Shown piece by piece: positions 3,747 through 62,681 of a stretch of 64,000 nt of DNA; within the stretch, counting starts at the first letter, position 1; each line of letters opens with the position of its first letter. The notes beneath the pieces are model-generated. The model was not told where the DNA came from. It ran no database searches and was given only the letters and a program-made list of their open reading frames with translations. The position numbers and the translations under genes were made by a program. This stretch comes from Chitinivibrionales bacterium. Its GTDB lineage: Bacteria; Fibrobacterota; Chitinivibrionia; Chitinivibrionales; WJKA01. The stretch covers positions 1 to 64,000 of the forward strand of contig WJLZ01000215.1 of assembly GCA_014728215.1 (NCBI GenBank), given 5' to 3'.

Positions 3747-4964
3747 CTAATGCCTCCTCATCGACACCGCAGGATCGGTTTTGGCTGCTTTGAGTGCGGG
3801 AAAGAGGCCGACGATCGTTGCGGTCAGGAGCACGGTAAGGGCCGGGATATAATAGCTTCGAAAATTGATTTCCGAGTGCATCTCCTTAAATTCCATGCCG
3901 CCGTAGGAGATTGGTTCGGGAAGGCTGAAACCGTATATTGACAGGATATAGTTGGCGATAAGGCCTACGATTATACCGCCGGCAATACTCAGCAGAGCGA
4001 GGATATTGACTTCGTAAAGGATCAGGGCAAAAATCTGTTTCGGTTTATTGCCCAGGGCTTTGAGAAGGCCGTATTCGCGGCGCCGCTCCAGAACGGCCAT
4101 CAGTACCGTATTTAAAACACCCACAGCAACGATCAAGATGATAACAAACAGAAATATGTACATTCCCTGCTTATCGGCCTGCATTGCATCATAGAAAGAG
4201 CGGGCAAAAACCTGCCAGGGCTCCACCGAAAGTTCGGGTTTATCGATTGCTGCACTGATTTCCTCACTGAGGCTTCGGGCCATACCGCTTTTTTCGGCAA
4301 TGACAACGATTTCATGAACCTGGTCGCCCAGTGCAAACAGCTGCTGGGCATCGTGCAAATGAAGGTAACAGGACATCCGGTCACTGACTTCATCCCCGCT
4401 TTGGATAATCCCCACGATTGTATAAGCATCGTTTGCAATGGAGCCGTCGGCGGCCTGGGAAACAATCACCAGCTCTTCACCGGTATGCGCCCCCAGGACC
4501 TTCGCCAGTCCCCGGCCGATCATTGCCTGATGTGATGGTTTTTCGGAGAGAAGCGAGCCTTCGGCAACCTTTTTGTGAAAATTGACCGCGGTCGTCTCAT
4601 GTTGCGGAGCTATGCCGATAACCCGGGCGGCGGAACTTTCATCCCCAACCGAAAGCAGACCGGCTGAAAAGACACGGGGAGCCCAGGCTTCCACACCTCC
4701 AATGTTCCCGATAGTGGCGCCGATTTTAGTATAATTCTCGATAGTTTTATAGAGTGATGGATTTTCGAGATAGCCTTCCTTGTGGACCTGCACATGCCCC
4801 AGTCGATTGCGGGTAAACATATCGATAATGTCACCATAGGTGCCGTCGGCCCACCCGAAACTGATCGATGCCAGTGCAAAACCTCCCAGCATGGTCAGGG
4901 CGGTCAGGATCGAACGCCGTCTCTGACGGAATACATTACGAAAGGCCATTTTCAATAAAAGCAT
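3747..4964 (-). CDS. FtsX/LolC-type ABC transporter permease (second copy, 405 aa)
   Basis: Same architecture as its downstream paralogue: basic N-terminus (KMAFRNVFRQRRR), one helix, a large periplasmic domain (about residues 40-270) and three C-terminal helices near 280-400 with the phrase VAVGVLNTVLMAVLERRREYG typical of FtsX permeases split by its own hydrophobic core. The ATG at 4964 is preferred over upstream in-frame starts because it follows the stop codon of the LolA-like gene by one base (TGA C ATG) and gives the canonical permease N-terminus. A 92-base gap separates it from the next permease. Confidence 0.85.
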   Translation of the reverse strand: MLLLKMAFRNVFRQRRRSILTALTMLGGFALASISFGWADGTYGDIIDMFTRNRLGHVQVHKEGYLENPSLYKTIENYTKIGATIGNIGGVEAWAPRVFSAGLLSVGDESSAARVIGIAPQHETTAVNFHKKVAEGSLLSEKPSHQAMIGRGLAKVLGAHTGEELVIVSQAADGSIANDAYTIVGIIQSGDEVSDRMSCYLHLHDAQQLFALGDQVHEIVVIAEKSGMARSLSEEISAAIDKPELSVEPWQVFARSFYDAMQADKQGMYIFLFVIILIVAVGVLNTVLMAVLERRREYGLLKALGNKPKQIFALILYEVNILALLSIAGGIIVGLIANYILSIYGFSLPEPISYGGMEFKEMHSEINFRSYYIPALTVLLTATIVGLFPALKAAKTDPAVSMRRH

Positions 4965-54834: not shown

Positions 54835-54911
54835 GCTGATTAACGCTGATTTTTTTTATAGGTTGTATCCCTGATCAGCGACAGATCGGCTTTATCAGCG
54901 TTTTTTTGGAC
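54835..54911. repeat. Dispersed ATCAGCG-type repeat, copy B
   Basis: GCTGATT-AACGCTGATTTTTTT, then CTGATCAGCG, TTATCAGCG and a final TTTTTTTGGAC follow the same order of words as the copy at 31-134. It lies in the 348-base gap between the divergent exchanger and lipoprotein genes and may contribute promoter elements. An in-frame TTG at its end is not the likely start of the downstream gene. Confidence 0.5.
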
Positions 54912-55052
54912 AAGGCGGTTATTATTGCAGAAAAACTAATATTTCCGATCAGCTCAATATTATATTCCATGTCTGATTATCGTATAGTATATCATTACTC
55001 TACCGATATTTTACAATTGACAAGGCATTGCCCCCCAAAGAAGAAACCTGAC

Positions 55053-57740
55053 ATGTTAAAAAAGTTGTGCGACAGCAAAAAAGAAAAATCCGGAACAGTT
55101 TCCCATCCTGGAATGTCGGACCACTGGTTTATCTATGCAATTATTGTCTTGCTCTTGTCCTGTTCCACTCCCGAGAACCCCGTCGACAATGAATCGCTCG
55201 TATCGGTGAGCTTTTCGGTCCCGGAGCCGGCCAATGCACAGGACTCAACCCTGTGGGAATTGTCCGATTCTGTACGAGTCACCCTCACGGCTGCTCTGCC
55301 CCACTTCATCGATTCGATCATTGTGGATTTCGGCGACGGGCACAGCAGAACATTCGATCTCCGTGGAGAATCCAGAACCGGATCCAGGAGCTTTTCTCTG
55401 ACCTATCTATACGCAGAACCGGGCGCCATAACAATCAAAGCGACCGGCTTTCCCAACGGAAAATCGACAACGATCGGCGCCTCGCTCCCGCTTGAGCTTG
55501 GCCTCTGTCCGAAGGTCATGCAGGAGCTTAAAACTCACGGCTCGTCGATTCTGGGTGCTTCCTATGCGCTCTCGGTTGAGTACACAGGCTCAGAGACATG
55601 CTCCTTTACATGGATGAAAAACGGCATGCCCCTGAGTTATATCGATTCTTCAGCCCTGAACTTTTCTTCTCTGGAAATATCCGACAGCGGTTCATACCGT
55701 TGCGCTGTCTCCAACAAATGGGGATCCGACTCGAGTACGTCATTAATGGTCATCCCGAAAAACGACAGCTCCGCCCCCGTGGTTCGACTCCTTGACGAAA
55801 CGATGGACAGTTCGAGCTGTACCGACGACTCGATCAGAATAGGGGTAATTGCCACCGACGATGGCGGGATTGACCGGGTGCGGGCACAACTCGGCATCGA
55901 TTTTTTCGAAGCCGCCCATGCCGGGGATTCGCTGTACTATGTGACAGTTTACGAATTAAAAGCTTCACAATGGAATGACATACAGATAATCGCATACGAT
56001 AACGCGGGCAAGACATCGACCATGGCAGTGCATGTGCGGTATTCACCCCTGATTGTCACGGTTACGCAGCCGACCCTGCATAGCGATTCCGCTGTTGCCG
56101 ATACGAACGTCGTTGCTCTCCATGGACGCGCGCGGTCGGGTGACACAACCATAGCATCGGTGGATATCCGGATCAATAGCACACCGGCGCCCTCTTCCGG
56201 GACCTCCACCTGGTCACTCATGGCTCCACTTACCCCGGGGATCTGGAACAGGATTGAAGTTGCTGCAGTCGACCATAAAGACCGCGATACAACCTGCACT
56301 TTTTACATTTTTGTACTCCACCATCTCCAGAAGCCCTTGCCGCCGGAGCGCGACTCGGCCTGGCAAACCGGCATGCGAATCCGATGGAACCAGGTGCCGC
56401 ACTGTACCCATTACCGTGCTGCACGAATTAACCCCGGAAGCGGGGATACAACCTGGCTGGAGCCGACCGCCGACACCACGACCATCGACAACAACCTGAT
56501 TGTCAACACCACCTATACCTATATAGTCAGAGGTCTGCAGGATATCGGGGGAAGTTTCGGGATTGTCGATTCGACTCCCCTGTCCGATACGGCTATTCTT
56601 TCCACCGCTCCCTACGCTTCGTTCCAGAAAGTCTACGGAGGGATCGGTAGCGACGCGGCCACGGGTGTGTTTCAGTGCGATGACGGCGGCTATTTCATCT
56701 GTGGATACACCGAATCATACGGTATCGGCGGGAGGGATGTTTACCTCGTGCGTACGAACCAGTCAGGCGAGACCATGTGGACCCGGACGTACGGCGGGAT
56801 CGGTGATGATATCGCCACCGCCTGCAGCCACACTCCTGATGGGTATTTCGTAATTTGCGGATACAGCTGTTCTTTTAGTGATTCGGGACAAAAAGAAATG
56901 TACCTGCTCAAAGTGGATGCCGTCGGGGATACGCTATGGACAGCAACCTGTGGGACGGGCAAAGAAGATGCAGCCAACGATGTATGCGTGACCGCCGATG
57001 GCGGCTATGCCCTGTGCGGATATACCTTCCAGGACACCGCTTCCGGAAACAAGAATGTTGCTCTTGTCAAATTCTCCTCCAATGGTACCAGGGAGTGGAC
57101 AGGAATGTACGGTGATATAAACCACGAAATCGGATTCAGAGTAAAACAGATTGCGGGTGGGGGCTTTATTCTTGCCGGTCAATCGCGGACCTATACTTCT
57201 CCCGGCAATATTCCCCTTGTCGGCTCCGGACCGGCACCCTTTGTCACGCGGACAGGACCCGGCGGTGAAGAGGTGTGGAGCACCGAGATAGACCGATCGG
57301 CGATCGGGACCCTGAAAAATATCCAGCCGCTGCCGGATGGCGGGTTTATCATTGCCGGTGAAACCGCAGCGGTCGTACCGACATCAGTGCTTTATCTGTC
57401 AAAAACAGATCAGAACGGGGCGGTTCTGTGGACCAAAACACACGGTGCGGCCGATTCGTACATTGCGCCGATTGTTGTGAATATTGCCGCTAACGGGGAT
57501 TTTGTTGTGGCTGGCAGCCGTGACGGCGACGCCTATGCGATCAGGACCACCTCGTCGGGCGACAGCCTCTGGGCCAACTCCTTCGGAGGAAACGAATTCG
57601 ACCAGGCCGAAGATATTTCCGAAACCGCGGATGGCGGATATGTGCTGGTCGGGAGCACACTCTCCTTCGGCGCCGGAAATGCCGACATCTACCTGATTAA
57701 AACCGACCCGCTTGGGAATTCCCCGTCCGGTCCGCAGTAA
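55053..57740 (+). CDS. Surface lipoprotein with PKD/Ig/Fn3-like domains and a repeat propeller
   Basis: A lipobox (VLLLSCS) after a hydrophobic stretch anchors the protein by an acylated Cys. Beta-sandwich domains follow: PKD-like (about 60-145, IVDFGDGHSRTF), Ig-like (about 165-230, DSGSYRCAVSN), further bacterial Ig modules, and an Fn3-like domain around 440-515. The last ~370 residues hold about seven repeats of ~50 aa with the pattern DGGYFxCGY..YLVRTNQSGETMWTRTYGG, probably a beta-propeller. ATG 55053 is chosen over 54969 and 55113 because it leaves Lys residues before the signal core; no start has a strong ribosome site. Likely a surface adhesion or binding protein. Confidence 0.7.
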   Translation: MLKKLCDSKKEKSGTVSHPGMSDHWFIYAIIVLLLSCSTPENPVDNESLVSVSFSVPEPANAQDSTLWELSDSVRVTLTAALPHFIDSIIVDFGDGHSRTFDLRGESRTGSRSFSLTYLYAEPGAITIKATGFPNGKSTTIGASLPLELGLCPKVMQELKTHGSSILGASYALSVEYTGSETCSFTWMKNGMPLSYIDSSALNFSSLEISDSGSYRCAVSNKWGSDSSTSLMVIPKNDSSAPVVRLLDETMDSSSCTDDSIRIGVIATDDGGIDRVRAQLGIDFFEAAHAGDSLYYVTVYELKASQWNDIQIIAYDNAGKTSTMAVHVRYSPLIVTVTQPTLHSDSAVADTNVVALHGRARSGDTTIASVDIRINSTPAPSSGTSTWSLMAPLTPGIWNRIEVAAVDHKDRDTTCTFYIFVLHHLQKPLPPERDSAWQTGMRIRWNQVPHCTHYRAARINPGSGDTTWLEPTADTTTIDNNLIVNTTYTYIVRGLQDIGGSFGIVDSTPLSDTAILSTAPYASFQKVYGGIGSDAATGVFQCDDGGYFICGYTESYGIGGRDVYLVRTNQSGETMWTRTYGGIGDDIATACSHTPDGYFVICGYSCSFSDSGQKEMYLLKVDAVGDTLWTATCGTGKEDAANDVCVTADGGYALCGYTFQDTASGNKNVALVKFSSNGTREWTGMYGDINHEIGFRVKQIAGGGFILAGQSRTYTSPGNIPLVGSGPAPFVTRTGPGGEEVWSTEIDRSAIGTLKNIQPLPDGGFIIAGETAAVVPTSVLYLSKTDQNGAVLWTKTHGAADSYIAPIVVNIAANGDFVVAGSRDGDAYAIRTTSSGDSLWANSFGGNEFDQAEDISETADGGYVLVGSTLSFGAGNADIYLIKTDPLGNSPSGPQ

Positions 57741-58016: not shown

Positions 58017-59165
58017 TTATCTGGAAAGAGTCAGAAGAGCAAGGGAATTGGGCGGCAATGCGCCGACGTCAATCGGACCGGCGACGGTGCTGTTATCCGA
58101 CGGATCAATGACTATCACACCGGGAGCGGTTGCACTGCGATCGCCTACATAAAGATATGTTCCGTCATAGGCAATCCCTCCAAAAGCATCGTCAATGCCG
58201 GCAACGGCATTCCCGACGGTTCCGGCAGTAAGATTGCATTCGACCAGTGATGTTGAAAAATTGAAGTTCTCGTCGGTTGTCCCGTTACACACATAAGCCT
58301 TCTCCTGGCTGATAATTTTAAGTGTGGTAATATCGCCGGTGAACAGTGATTCGGAAACAACAATACCCTCATTGGTGTTGGTACTCAGGTTGATTTTTTC
58401 GATTCCGCCGTCGGCCTGGTCCATCCACGAACCGGTTGATGATACGTAGAGATACCCCCCGCAGGTGTCAAGTGAAGCCGGATTCCCTTTGCTGAGTTTT
58501 ATCGATGCGACAATCTGGTCGGTCGAGGTCGAAACGACCACAACCATTCCGGTGGAATCAACAAAATCGGGATAGGGCCCATAGGCCCCCTGCACGGTTT
58601 TCAACCGTTGAATGAGGAGATATGCATTGCCGCCAGCAACCATTATTTCGCTCATATAGGGCACGGTTTCTCCCTCACTGAGATATAACGGATCATTGAT
58701 CGCAATAGCCCCGACGACATCACCGGTGGTCGGATTAATAATCGCACAATTGGGAGAGCCATACTGGGTAACATAAGCTTTTGTGTCTTTCACAACGGCA
58801 ATATTCTGAATATTGACCGCAGCCCCGAGACTCTTCTGATAAGTTAAGCTTTCCGAGGAAATATTTTCATCATCGATACGAATGAGGTTATCGGCCCCCA
58901 GGCGTTCCAGGACGTAAACGGAACCACCTCCTGCTGTAACGGTGTTGTCGCCATTGATAGTGAGCAGGTCGGTGGCGGCGGTATAATCGGCCGTAGATAT
59001 TACCGATACATTGCCGCTGGAATAATCCGATGCTGCCGTGGATGCAATGATATAGGTCGTTGACTGTGTCACCGGGCCATTATCAGTCTTGACATCATTA
59101 TCCAGAATGCAGCCACCAATCAAAAAACTAATCGTTGGCGTCACGAAAACAAGTAAGCGTCTCAT
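58017..59165 (-). CDS. Beta-propeller surface lipoprotein, BtuG-like candidate
   Basis: Signal peptide with lipobox IGGCIL (Cys at residue 19), then about seven repeats of a YVTN/YncE-type propeller, for example GNVSVISTADYTAATDLL, AGGGSVYVLER, VVVVSTSTDQIVASIKLSKG and GVIVIDPSDNSTVAGPI. AAGGAG precedes the ATG. It starts 33 bases behind the TonB receptor, itself under a cobalamin riboswitch. In Bacteroidetes, BtuG is a propeller lipoprotein encoded beside BtuB that captures B12 on the cell surface; position and architecture match here. Sequence identity to BtuG was not tested, so the role is inference. Confidence 0.7.
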   Translation of the reverse strand: MRRLLVFVTPTISFLIGGCILDNDVKTDNGPVTQSTTYIIASTAASDYSSGNVSVISTADYTAATDLLTINGDNTVTAGGGSVYVLERLGADNLIRIDDENISSESLTYQKSLGAAVNIQNIAVVKDTKAYVTQYGSPNCAIINPTTGDVVGAIAINDPLYLSEGETVPYMSEIMVAGGNAYLLIQRLKTVQGAYGPYPDFVDSTGMVVVVSTSTDQIVASIKLSKGNPASLDTCGGYLYVSSTGSWMDQADGGIEKINLSTNTNEGIVVSESLFTGDITTLKIISQEKAYVCNGTTDENFNFSTSLVECNLTAGTVGNAVAGIDDAFGGIAYDGTYLYVGDRSATAPGVIVIDPSDNSTVAGPIDVGALPPNSLALLTLSR

Positions 59166-59197
59166 GAAATCTCCTTTTGGGGTTAAGAAAAGTTAAT

Positions 59198-61201
59198 TCA
59201 AAAAAGTATCCTGGTACTGAAAAAGTGCATTCGCCCCGGTAACGGCGCATAATTGCCCATGGGAACATATATTTCATCAAGGTAATTTTCCATTCGGTAG
59301 GTCAGGTGTATCATTTCTTTGATCGTAAGCGTTGCATAGGCGCTCATCACCGGAAAGGGAACCACGATATCATCCGGGATTGTATGGCCTTTCAAATAGG
59401 GGCTCCGGTAATGGATAGAGTGGCTGGCGCGTATTGGACCGAAAATGGTGGTTATGCGAAAGTCATTTTCAATCGGTGAGTAATAGAGAAGCGTTTGTGC
59501 CGAATCCCGGCTCTGCCCGCTGTCTCGCATTGATTTGTAAATAAAGGTGAACCGGTTATCGAGAAGCAGCCATTGCAGAAGCCGAAGACGGGTATCCCAT
59601 TCCATACCGGCAAACCGCATATCGCCAGTGTTCTGAGCCATGATTATCCGCTGTGACTGGGCGCGGATTTCGATCATGTCGTGTGTATAGCCGATAAAAC
59701 CGGCCAGTGCTGATTCGCTGTTTTTTGTCGTCAGCGTTGCGCCGAAACAGGCTTCCGAGCTTTTTTCCGGCCGGAGACGGGGATTACCGTGGTAATTATT
59801 GCCCCATCCATAGCGATCGGAGAGAGTCACCGGCAGGTGCTCGTATCGTGCGGCAGCGTCAAGTACAAGCCGGCGCGTTACATGAAACAGGATATCAAGG
59901 TTTGCATTCGGGTAATGGGTGCTGAATTGTTGCGGCAACGGCGCACCGTTTCCGTGATTCGGCGTGAAATTCGCCGAGTCGACTGAATAGATATGGTTGT
60001 ACCGAAATGAAACCGTCAGCGAATCCCAGGATGCTTCAAGCTCTGCAGCGCCGGTCCCGCTGACCCGGTGAGCCCTTGGCGGCTCCACCCGGGAAGGGGC
60101 CAGAAGGTTTTCGGAATTATAGCCTTCGTACGATCCACCGATACGCCCTCGCACCGAAAAAATATCGCTGAGCAAAAGGAGACCGTCGGTATGCAGCGAC
60201 AGGTATGGAAGATTCTCTTTCTCTTTTCGTTGACCGGAGAGATAATAGTTACCCAGAGGATCGTGGAACAAACGATGTTCAAAGCGTCCCTCCAGCCGGA
60301 CTCCCCAATATCCAAGCTCTGCAAACTCATTCTCCCAACTGAGAAAGCCCCTGACATTTTCCGATGTTCTCTCTGTTTGCTGGATCGAATCTGCAAGAAA
60401 TTTATGGAAATATTCCTTGCGGTCCCGCATGAATACGACCTGCGACAAAAACCGGTTCCCCGGTGCAATTTCTAAAATACCGGAATAGGAGGCATTAAAC
60501 AACATGTAGGCATTGTTGTCTTTTTCCCGACGGGAATCATCATCGGGATTATGCTTGGTATTATTATCGTAATCGAATTCATAATTGTTTTGCGCGGCCG
60601 AATAATCGATCGCAAAATGGTTGATAAGCCGTTCGTTTTTTTTCCGGGCGAGCATACCGCCTTTACAGTATCCATAGCTGCCGTATTCGGCGACGCCGCT
60701 TACCATATCGGAATCCGCCACACTGCTGAGAGAGATAACCCCGCCGGCGGTATTCCCCATCAAATCCATCGGGGCCGAACCTTTATAAACGGTTATCGAT
60801 CGAAGAGCGTTCAGCGATATCTTGCTCAGATCGACAGCCCCCCCGGCCGCGGAGTTGAGTGGGATACCATCGAGGTACACCTGGACCTGTTTCGGGGACC
60901 TTCCGCGAATGGAGGCGTCCGAATATTCACCAATTCCGCCTGTTCGGCGGACAATCACGCCGGAGACCTGTTCGAGTACTGCCGACAAATCGGCAAATTT
61001 GCCCTGAAATTCGTCGGCCTTTATTTCGGTAACCGCGCTGCGCTCCCGCGATGCACGGCGCGCAGAGACCACGATCGTTTCAAGCTCCCGCACTGCAGTA
61101 TCGGCAGTATCAACCGCCGGAATCGCTGCTGTAACTATTCGGGATACCAGAAAAATGACCGCCCAGGCATACCAGGGGGGTGCAAAACCGGAATTATTCA
61201 C
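59198..61201 (-). CDS. btuB: TonB-dependent outer-membrane receptor, BtuB-like
   Basis: Imports cobalamin or a related corrinoid across the outer membrane with energy from TonB. A TonB-box-like RELETIVVSA lies after the signal peptide, the plug domain shows VLEQVSGVIVRRTGG, RGRSPKQVQVYLDGIPLN and ITVYKGSAP, and the barrel ends in FFSTRILF with a terminal Phe. GTG 61201 is chosen because AGGAGG lies ten bases before it; TTG 61207 and ATG 61231 are alternatives. Longer in-frame readings run into the riboswitch and are rejected. The riboswitch is the main evidence for B12. Confidence 0.9.
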   Translation of the reverse strand: MNNSGFAPPWYAWAVIFLVSRIVTAAIPAVDTADTAVRELETIVVSARRASRERSAVTEIKADEFQGKFADLSAVLEQVSGVIVRRTGGIGEYSDASIRGRSPKQVQVYLDGIPLNSAAGGAVDLSKISLNALRSITVYKGSAPMDLMGNTAGGVISLSSVADSDMVSGVAEYGSYGYCKGGMLARKKNERLINHFAIDYSAAQNNYEFDYDNNTKHNPDDDSRREKDNNAYMLFNASYSGILEIAPGNRFLSQVVFMRDRKEYFHKFLADSIQQTERTSENVRGFLSWENEFAELGYWGVRLEGRFEHRLFHDPLGNYYLSGQRKEKENLPYLSLHTDGLLLLSDIFSVRGRIGGSYEGYNSENLLAPSRVEPPRAHRVSGTGAAELEASWDSLTVSFRYNHIYSVDSANFTPNHGNGAPLPQQFSTHYPNANLDILFHVTRRLVLDAAARYEHLPVTLSDRYGWGNNYHGNPRLRPEKSSEACFGATLTTKNSESALAGFIGYTHDMIEIRAQSQRIIMAQNTGDMRFAGMEWDTRLRLLQWLLLDNRFTFIYKSMRDSGQSRDSAQTLLYYSPIENDFRITTIFGPIRASHSIHYRSPYLKGHTIPDDIVVPFPVMSAYATLTIKEMIHLTYRMENYLDEIYVPMGNYAPLPGRMHFFSTRILF

Positions 61202-61256
61202 ACACAAAAAACCTCCTGAGCCCCTTTCCATGAAGGCCCAAAAAGAACGATACGCA

Positions 61257-61443
61257 TTCAGGCAGGTCTCCTGGCTTTCCCGGTACTGTCGGCCTTCCCA
61301 TCCCGCACGGCGGGACAGTGACCTGGAATGACAGCCCCCGCTCATCCACTCACTGAGATAACTCGAAGCAAATGAAAGAACAGTAATGGGATTACAGTGG
61401 CAGGTCCGCTCCGGATTTTCACCGGAATTCCCTGACGCCTGAA
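61257..61443 (-). promoter_or_regulatory. Cobalamin riboswitch
   Basis: On the minus strand, the P1 arms TTCAGGC (61443-61437) and GCCTGAA (61263-61257) enclose the conserved parts: GGAATTCCGGTGAAAATCCGG, GCGGACCTGCCACTGTAA, and the B12 box AAGCCAGGAGACCTGCC (61277-61261). All are diagnostic of the cobalamin riboswitch. It lies 40-56 bases before the start of the TonB receptor, and no terminator hairpin is obvious, so it probably works by controlling translation. High B12 would turn the receptor and propeller lipoprotein down. Confidence 0.95.
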
Positions 61444-61462
61444 TTACCAAATAACGACAAAA

Positions 61463-61690: not shown

Positions 61691-61754
61691 GCAGGGGGGC
61701 TTGCCCCCGGGCGAGTGCAGCAGAAATTTTATGAGAGGCTCGAAAGGAAGTTGT

Positions 61755-62681
61755 ATGAAAACGTTCTACCGGCTATTGTTGCTTGCTCTTATCAATACCG
61801 GACTCATGGTACTTCATTCCGGCTGTTCGCCACAAGAGGAGACAGGTACCCGCCATGCCTTTGTCAGTATCCTTCCCCATCGATCCATCGCCCAACGGGT
61901 AGCGGGAGACCGGTTCGCAATTCATGTTTTAGTCGGTCCCGGCCAGAGCCCCCACAGCTATACGCCAACCCCCGGGCAGATTGTAAAATTGTCCGAGTCA
62001 CGGTTGTTTTTCCGGGCCGGCGTCGAATTTGAAGAAGGAATCCTTCCAAAAATCAACAAGACCATGCCCGATCTGACTGTTGTCGATTTACGTAAGGATA
62101 TACCGTTACGGGAGATGGAATGCGACCATGGCCGGCACCACCACGATCATGATGAGCACGGGCACAACGATTCGGAAGTACATCACCACAACGGCGGAAC
62201 CGATCCCCATATCTGGCTCTCACCGGTACTGATGAAAACACAGGCGGCAACGATCAAGGATGTGTTTGTCGAAGCCGATCCTGAAGGCAAAGGGGTATAC
62301 GAAACCAATCTCAAAGCCCTTCATGCCGACCTGGATTCACTCAACAGTTTTCTTCATGAAACCCTCGATCCCATAAGCGGTACCGAGCTGTTCGTGTTCC
62401 ACCCCTCCTTCGGGTATTTTGCCGATGAATACGGATTTCATCAGCAAGCCATTGAAATCGCAGGAAAAGAGCCGAGTGCAAAAACGCTGGCCCATCTTAT
62501 CGACCAAGCCCGGGAGCATCAGCCCAAAGTTATCTTTGTCCAGCCTCAGTTTTCGCAGAAAAGCGCACGGGCAATCGCCGAGCAGGTGGAATGCGCGGTC
62601 GTGCCGATCAATCCTCTGCCGGAGGATTATCTCAAAGAAATGCGGGAGATGGGTGAGAAAATAAACGCGGCGCTGGAATGA
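61755..62681 (+). CDS. ZnuA-like metal ABC transporter substrate-binding lipoprotein
   Basis: Cluster A-I binding protein for Zn or Mn. Lipobox SGCS follows a hydrophobic leader; the first metal His lies in GPGQSPHSYTPTP, a His/Asp-rich loop (HGRHHHDHDEHGHNDSEVHHHN, counted in two blocks around residues 117-138) precedes the second His in GTDPHIWLSP, with further ligands near FHPSFGYFADEYG and the C-terminal VVPINPLPEDY. The His-rich loop is typical of zinc-specific ZnuA. AAAGGAAG precedes the ATG at 61755. No permease or ATPase follows in this window. Confidence 0.9.
   Translation: MKTFYRLLLLALINTGLMVLHSGCSPQEETGTRHAFVSILPHRSIAQRVAGDRFAIHVLVGPGQSPHSYTPTPGQIVKLSESRLFFRAGVEFEEGILPKINKTMPDLTVVDLRKDIPLREMECDHGRHHHDHDEHGHNDSEVHHHNGGTDPHIWLSPVLMKTQAATIKDVFVEADPEGKGVYETNLKALHADLDSLNSFLHETLDPISGTELFVFHPSFGYFADEYGFHQQAIEIAGKEPSAKTLAHLIDQAREHQPKVIFVQPQFSQKSARAIAEQVECAVVPINPLPEDYLKEMREMGEKINAALE

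Follow-up and report, generated by a model that had tools for sequence, protein, structure and literature searches.

The closest described counterpart of the operon considered here is the BtuB2-BtuG2 pair of Bacteroides thetaiotaomicron, in which the propeller lipoprotein BtuG serves as a lid on a BtuB-type TonB-dependent receptor; such lipoprotein-assisted uptake of small molecules was proposed to be general in Bacteroides (PMC10404256). BtuG was reported to be exclusive to the Bacteroidetes, based on a BLAST survey of 313 human-gut strains (PMC6143338). DUF4465, another B12-binding family, was described across several phyla in 2026 (PMC13398666), and B12-capture proteins outside Bacteroides are therefore not unheard of. 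In the open-access literature, no paper joining BtuG and Fibrobacter was found, an absence that is not proof of novelty. Here, a cobalamin riboswitch, a TonB-dependent receptor gene and a propeller lipoprotein gene are analyzed in a 64,000-nucleotide stretch of contig WJLZ01000215.1 (assembly GCA_014728215.1), referred to as the window. The genome belongs to the Chitinivibrionales, an order of Fibrobacterota within the FCB group, in agreement with the original prediction, made from the sequence alone, that it does not look like Bacteroides.

The three elements very probably make up a riboswitch-controlled, BtuBG-type operon for outer-membrane corrinoid uptake, composed of a receptor and a propeller lid. 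The best reading of all results is that a BtuBG-type system is standard in Fibrobacterota, a second phylum, with a divergent lid. The evidence consists of the riboswitch, the receptor family, the fold and lipoprotein signal of the propeller, the operon linkage across the phylum, the co-variation of receptor and propeller types, and a gene content that combines B12-binding domains with no match to CbiC. The function of the pair is assigned from operon and fold, since the ancestry of both proteins is unsettled in the trees. The features of the locus are as follows:

61244-61457, minus strand: cobalamin riboswitch aptamer (RF00174; cmscan, model positions 1-189 of 189)
61411-61425, minus strand: P5-L5 hairpin of the aptamer, CCGGUGAAAAUCCGG (unique match)
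61212-61245, minus strand: expression-platform hairpin with a 13-pair stem (terminator scan and minimum free energy fold)
59198-61201, minus strand: BtuB-like TonB-dependent receptor (longest open reading frame 59198-61450; Plug and barrel domains, profile, AlphaFold)
58017-59165, minus strand: BtuG-like seven-bladed beta-propeller lipoprotein of 382 amino acids, Cys19 (AlphaFold, Foldseek, profile, operon position)
59109-59111, minus strand: codon for Cys19, the cysteine predicted to carry the lipid (it follows LIGG in the translation)
58605-58610, minus strand: codons of Gln186 (98% conserved) and Arg187 (84%), at the start of the blade-4 A-B loop (weighted conservation, alignment A1 on the model)

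The riboswitch is matched by the RF00174 model over the whole aptamer at 63.1 bits, against a cut-off of 31.5 (E = 3.1e-13, Rfam cmscan), and is present as a single copy in the 5.0 Mb genome. The L5 loop GUGAA is complementary to UUCAU (61230-61234) in the loop of the downstream hairpin, as read from the sequence, and the two would form a kissing loop; pairing between L5 and the loop of a downstream hairpin is the classical layout of cobalamin riboswitches. The Shine-Dalgarno sequence AGGAGG (61212-61217) sits in the 3' arm of the expression-platform hairpin and is followed by six U residues. The folding statistics of this hairpin are unremarkable (z only -0.73), and similar leader hairpins with the loop UUCAUGG or UCACGG were found at loci L058, L061, L024, L034, L029, and L023. 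An automated scan recognized a Shine-Dalgarno motif in only 20 of 59 leaders, of which 17 were paired. As to the control mode, translation or termination, the arrangement points to translational control. One of these loci, L058 (genome G037, contig C156), carries two divergent cobalamin riboswitches, at 4072-4256 (minus strand) and 4704-4914 (plus strand), about 450 nucleotides apart; the same genome contains five riboswitches and two receptor-propeller pairs.

The TTG start listed for the longest receptor frame, at 61450, falls within the riboswitch, and an ATG in the leader, at 61231, is located in the hairpin loop. The GTG at 61201 is the likely start, because AGGAGG lies 10 nucleotides upstream; the protein then begins with a signal peptide. 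The encoded protein contains Plug (2.8e-17) and TonB_dep_Rec (4e-10) domains, so that a cobalamin riboswitch does precede a TonB receptor as originally described. When a profile of 56 receptors was searched against the PDB, the ten best sequences were all BtuB, with E values from 9e-49 to 9e-45 (8p97, 9e-49; 3rgm, 2.1e-48; 1nqe, 4.4e-48; 8bmx, 7.7e-48; 8blw, 9.3e-45), including the B. thetaiotaomicron BtuB proteins solved with BtuG; XusA, the receptor of the XusA-XusB xenosiderophore system, followed below them at 2.9e-39. BtuB structures also lead and dominate the fold matches of the AlphaFold model (predicted local distance difference test score, pLDDT, 86.1), the highest template modeling scores being to BtuB1 of BtuB1G1 (0.78/0.84, 3.9 A). 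The receptor scores below the NCBIfam TonB-B12 equivalog cut-off (TIGR01779, 62.8 vs. 599.7 bits), a model that is presumably tuned to proteobacterial BtuB. Judged by profile and model, the receptor is BtuB-type, in that its nearest solved relatives are BtuB.

The propeller gene begins 32 nucleotides after the receptor stop codon, with no terminator-like site in the gap. The predicted seven-bladed lipoprotein behind the receptor was confirmed in its blades, by AlphaFold, and in its lipoprotein signal; the spacing had been given as 33. The lipidated cysteine is followed by acid-rich residues (CILDND), and a cysteine after the signal peptide is present in most intact homologues. In loci of family f8 (L070, L081, L062, L074, and others), long serine-rich SSSS linkers separate the propeller from the cysteine of the lipid anchor. 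The model (pLDDT 91.1, predicted template modeling score 0.90) contains seven four-stranded blades with a loop inserted in blade 4. In Foldseek searches the top five PDB matches were all BtuG (8.3e-15 to 4.2e-13), and BtuG accounted for 14 of the 15 best, most of them with bound cobalamin. In Pfam, NCBIfam, and the PDB, relatives of the propeller were reached through profiles and structure rather than by single-sequence search, and its profile matched BtuG chains at 1.3e-8 to 2.6e-8. The mature protein is acidic, with an isoelectric point (pI) of 4.05 compared with 4.55 for BtuG2.

Homologues are spread throughout the phylum: among 61 genomes, the propeller query found matches in 53, the riboswitch in 57, and the receptor in 58. 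Neighborhoods were read with iterated profiles, giving 56 propellers from 55 Fibrobacterota genomes. The receptor is directly upstream on the same strand for 55 of the 56 propellers, with the riboswitch ahead in 52 of these 55, and the four exceptions to the full riboswitch-receptor-propeller order are all at contig ends. Conversely, a receptor-adjacent lipoprotein propeller is kept at every resolvable riboswitch-receptor locus. Chance or a reading artefact was ruled out by the cmscan match together with the 55/56 operon linkage. The original prediction held that a propeller never found beside B12 receptors, or a pair lacking co-regulation, would speak against it; in essentially every Fibrobacterota genome sampled the propeller adjoins the receptor, in one riboswitch-led operon that often includes BtuFCD and cobamide genes. 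The cluster runs on into BtuF-, BtuD-, or BtuC-like genes at 18 loci; BtuF-like and BtuD-like genes were each located near 18 loci and BtuC-like genes near 16, as a rule directly downstream, and genes for CobA/BtuR, CobQ, CobU, CobT, CobS, and CbiR were found in several clusters. In a single scan of genome contigs the window propeller matched solely a Chitinivibrionales relative, a metagenome-assembled genome; tblastn of plasmids with it gave no match, and viral contigs scanned with a BtuG fragment contained no relative.

The same neighborhoods bear on the ligand. It could be argued that the pair imports another compound, such as a siderophore, and that the riboswitch merely reflects a metabolic link, considering that receptor families this large are hard to assign from sequence alone and that both proteins have a sequence affinity to XusAB. 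Such a role is very improbable in view of the riboswitch at 52 loci, the clustering of the pair with genes for BtuFCD, CobA, CobQ, CobU, CobT, CobS, and CbiR, and the ranking of BtuB above XusA in the profile search. A second proposal, that the propeller is an operon lipoprotein without corrinoid binding, for example one that helps to assemble or support the receptor, or a periplasmic protein similar to YncE or BamB, draws on the weak matches of some members to PQQ_2/BamB and YncE and on the fact that corrinoid binding by the propeller is itself inferred; moreover, we know of no signal rule for the surface export of Fibrobacterota lipoproteins. It is improbable, as BtuG structures, mostly solved with B12, give the best fold matches, the protein is acidic like BtuG, and a lipoprotein propeller adjoins the receptor at every resolvable riboswitch-receptor locus, in the manner of the BtuBG and XusAB lids (PMC10404256, PMC13142918).

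Receptor and propeller also vary together. Their distances are correlated (Mantel r = 0.83, of which shared descent explains part), and receptor clusters match propeller clusters except at L063, with cluster thresholds set after the data had been seen. Receptor and propeller appear to have been replaced together, because genus g20 includes two distinct matched combinations: the window-type pair occurs in one genome and the other type in another.

Several observations weigh against the assignment of the pair to a BtuBG-type system. By fold, generic viral propellers reach 6e-11 (about 1e-10), and the viral structure library returned generic propellers only; fold alone is therefore weak evidence, and the BtuG match of the model is a preference, not proof. 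In the profile search the lactonase Drp35 slightly outscored BtuG (4.9e-10 vs. 1.3e-8), and as a single sequence the window propeller had no match in Pfam, NCBIfam, or the PDB. An orphan paralogue, outside the set of 56, has neither receptor nor riboswitch next to it (L094, 4904-6067, minus strand, contig C9 of genome G007). The propeller profile is fitted more closely by one XusB sequence (1.8e-15) than by BtuG2 (2.6e-9), and the receptor profile more closely by XusA (1.4e-36) than by BtuB2 (3.1e-30). The BtuG2 residues named as B12 contacts are Trp194, Tyr239, Trp272, Tyr316, and Tyr335 (PMC10404256); a sequence matching that of BtuG2 structure 8bmx in full came from a Bacteroides record. 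Trp194, Trp272, Tyr316, and Tyr335 are not conserved in the Fibrobacterota set, in an alignment that is uncertain in the loops, and only Tyr239 has a counterpart, Trp247, at a position with an aromatic residue in 37 of 49 sequences. The expectation that the corrinoid-facing residues would be retained was thus borne out at one position and failed at four. Overall, the putative ligand face shows no significant enrichment of conserved positions (p = 0.27).

The Fibrobacterota propellers have conserved positions of their own. Gln186, Asn228, Gly245, and Glu256 are near-invariant, with Arg187 close behind, and among loop positions the polar ones with strong conservation fall mostly within the A-B and C-D loops, the side of the BtuG2 contacts. 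It is possible, although we regard it as rather doubtful, that Fibrobacterota recruited their own B12-capturing surface lid separately from BtuG, with a pocket around Gln186-Arg187, Asn228, and Arg343 and a convergent receptor-lid mechanism.

A more general form of independent recruitment concerns the origin of the pair and leaves its uptake function unchanged: the pair would derive from an XusAB-like siderophore pair, or the lid from another propeller family, with B12 control acquired separately from Bacteroides BtuG and with a corrinoid pocket of its own. This is possible, though less than probable. The better alignment of the Xus proteins, the loss of most BtuG2 contact residues, and the receptor-then-propeller gene order, which matches Xus and is opposite to that of the examined Bacteroides locus, are in its favor, as is the receptor tree, in which Xus rows lie between two Fibrobacterota clades (91/84). 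However, the deep branches of that tree lack resolution, and topology tests rejected neither a single Fibrobacterota clade (p = 0.35) nor a clade of Fibrobacterota with Bacteroidota BtuB (p = 0.30); the propeller tree likewise lacks resolution at depth. Family membership also argues for a BtuG relationship. The Pfam family DUF5074 includes Bacteroidota BtuG2 as well as two Persicobacter proteins linked to riboswitches, and two orthologues of the window protein, from L032 and L061, exceed its cut-off (36.7 and 35.0 vs. 27.2 bits), the others being below it or without a score. DUF5074 matches at E values up to 1 occur in 17 of 54 propeller members, whereas DUF4374, the XusB family, is absent from the 25 most frequent families of these members and gave none for the window protein. 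In addition, Persicobacter has riboswitch, BtuB, and BtuG in the same order. That the window propeller belongs to BtuG in the strict sense is not established.

With a BtuBG-type system as the preferred reading, the following mechanism can be proposed. At low intracellular cobalamin, the riboswitch would leave the ribosome-binding site of the receptor free, and receptor and lipoprotein would be made together. The lipoprotein is probably exported to the cell surface, where it would cover the BtuB-type receptor like a lid on a hinge, capturing corrinoids and passing them on to it. Import would be powered by TonB and completed by BtuF-BtuCD, for which candidates are present on other contigs of the same genome: a BtuC-BtuD-CobA cluster on contig C105 and a single BtuF-like protein on contig C190. 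Seven B12-binding domains scored above cut-off in this genome (96% complete), and CbiC, the sole corrin-ring gene family searched, had no match in it, which together fit a B12 scavenger. Two neighbors of the operon are on the plus strand: a metal-binding lipoprotein of the ZnuA/MntC type, containing a His-rich loop (61722-62681; PF01297, 7.9e-68) and divergent from the B12 operon, and a long protein resembling a lipoprotein, in which Ig-like domains and repeats of GGIGSD-type segments occur (54906-57740).

The phylum-wide linkage and the BtuG-closest fold support the earlier suggestion that surface B12 capture extends beyond the Bacteroidetes. Lid-assisted capture would then be confined neither to the human gut nor to Bacteroidota, and it may go back to an ancestor of the FCB group or have several origins. 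Predictions follow for Fibrobacterota, probably including rumen Fibrobacter, and the divergent propellers may be useful for asking which lid features corrinoid binding needs.

Among known systems, E. coli PqqU (YncD)/YncE resembles the locus in that a receptor gene adjoins a propeller gene, but the two genes are divergently oriented, the system is related to pyrroloquinoline quinone (PQQ), and YncE is basic (pI 8.79). The XusA-XusB system of Bacteroides (DUF4374) likewise pairs a receptor with a propeller lipoprotein of seven blades that serves as its lid (PMC13142918) and gave the best single-sequence alignments to the Fibrobacterota profiles; unlike the Fibrobacterota pair, its ligand is a siderophore, and the Xus-type locus scanned (L085) has no cobalamin riboswitch. 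The BtuB-BtuG operons of Persicobacter (Bacteroidota, Cytophagales) run from riboswitch to BtuB to BtuG as in Fibrobacterota, but have an extra gene for a lipoprotein-like or secreted protein between riboswitch and BtuB, and their propeller is clearly DUF5074; both operons (L087 and L088) are plasmid-borne. BtuB2-BtuG2 (BT1954 family) differs in phylum, in its gene order at the Bacteroides locus L084, where the propeller gene comes before the receptor gene, and in its lid, since the Fibrobacterota lid is without four of the five named B12 contacts and the window protein is without a DUF5074 match; B. thetaiotaomicron has three BtuBG loci and Fibrobacterota genomes mostly one. It nevertheless shares with the window operon the cobalamin riboswitch, the BtuB-type receptor adjoining a seven-bladed propeller lipoprotein and the closest fold, and with many of its Fibrobacterota relatives the BtuFCD genes in the operon.

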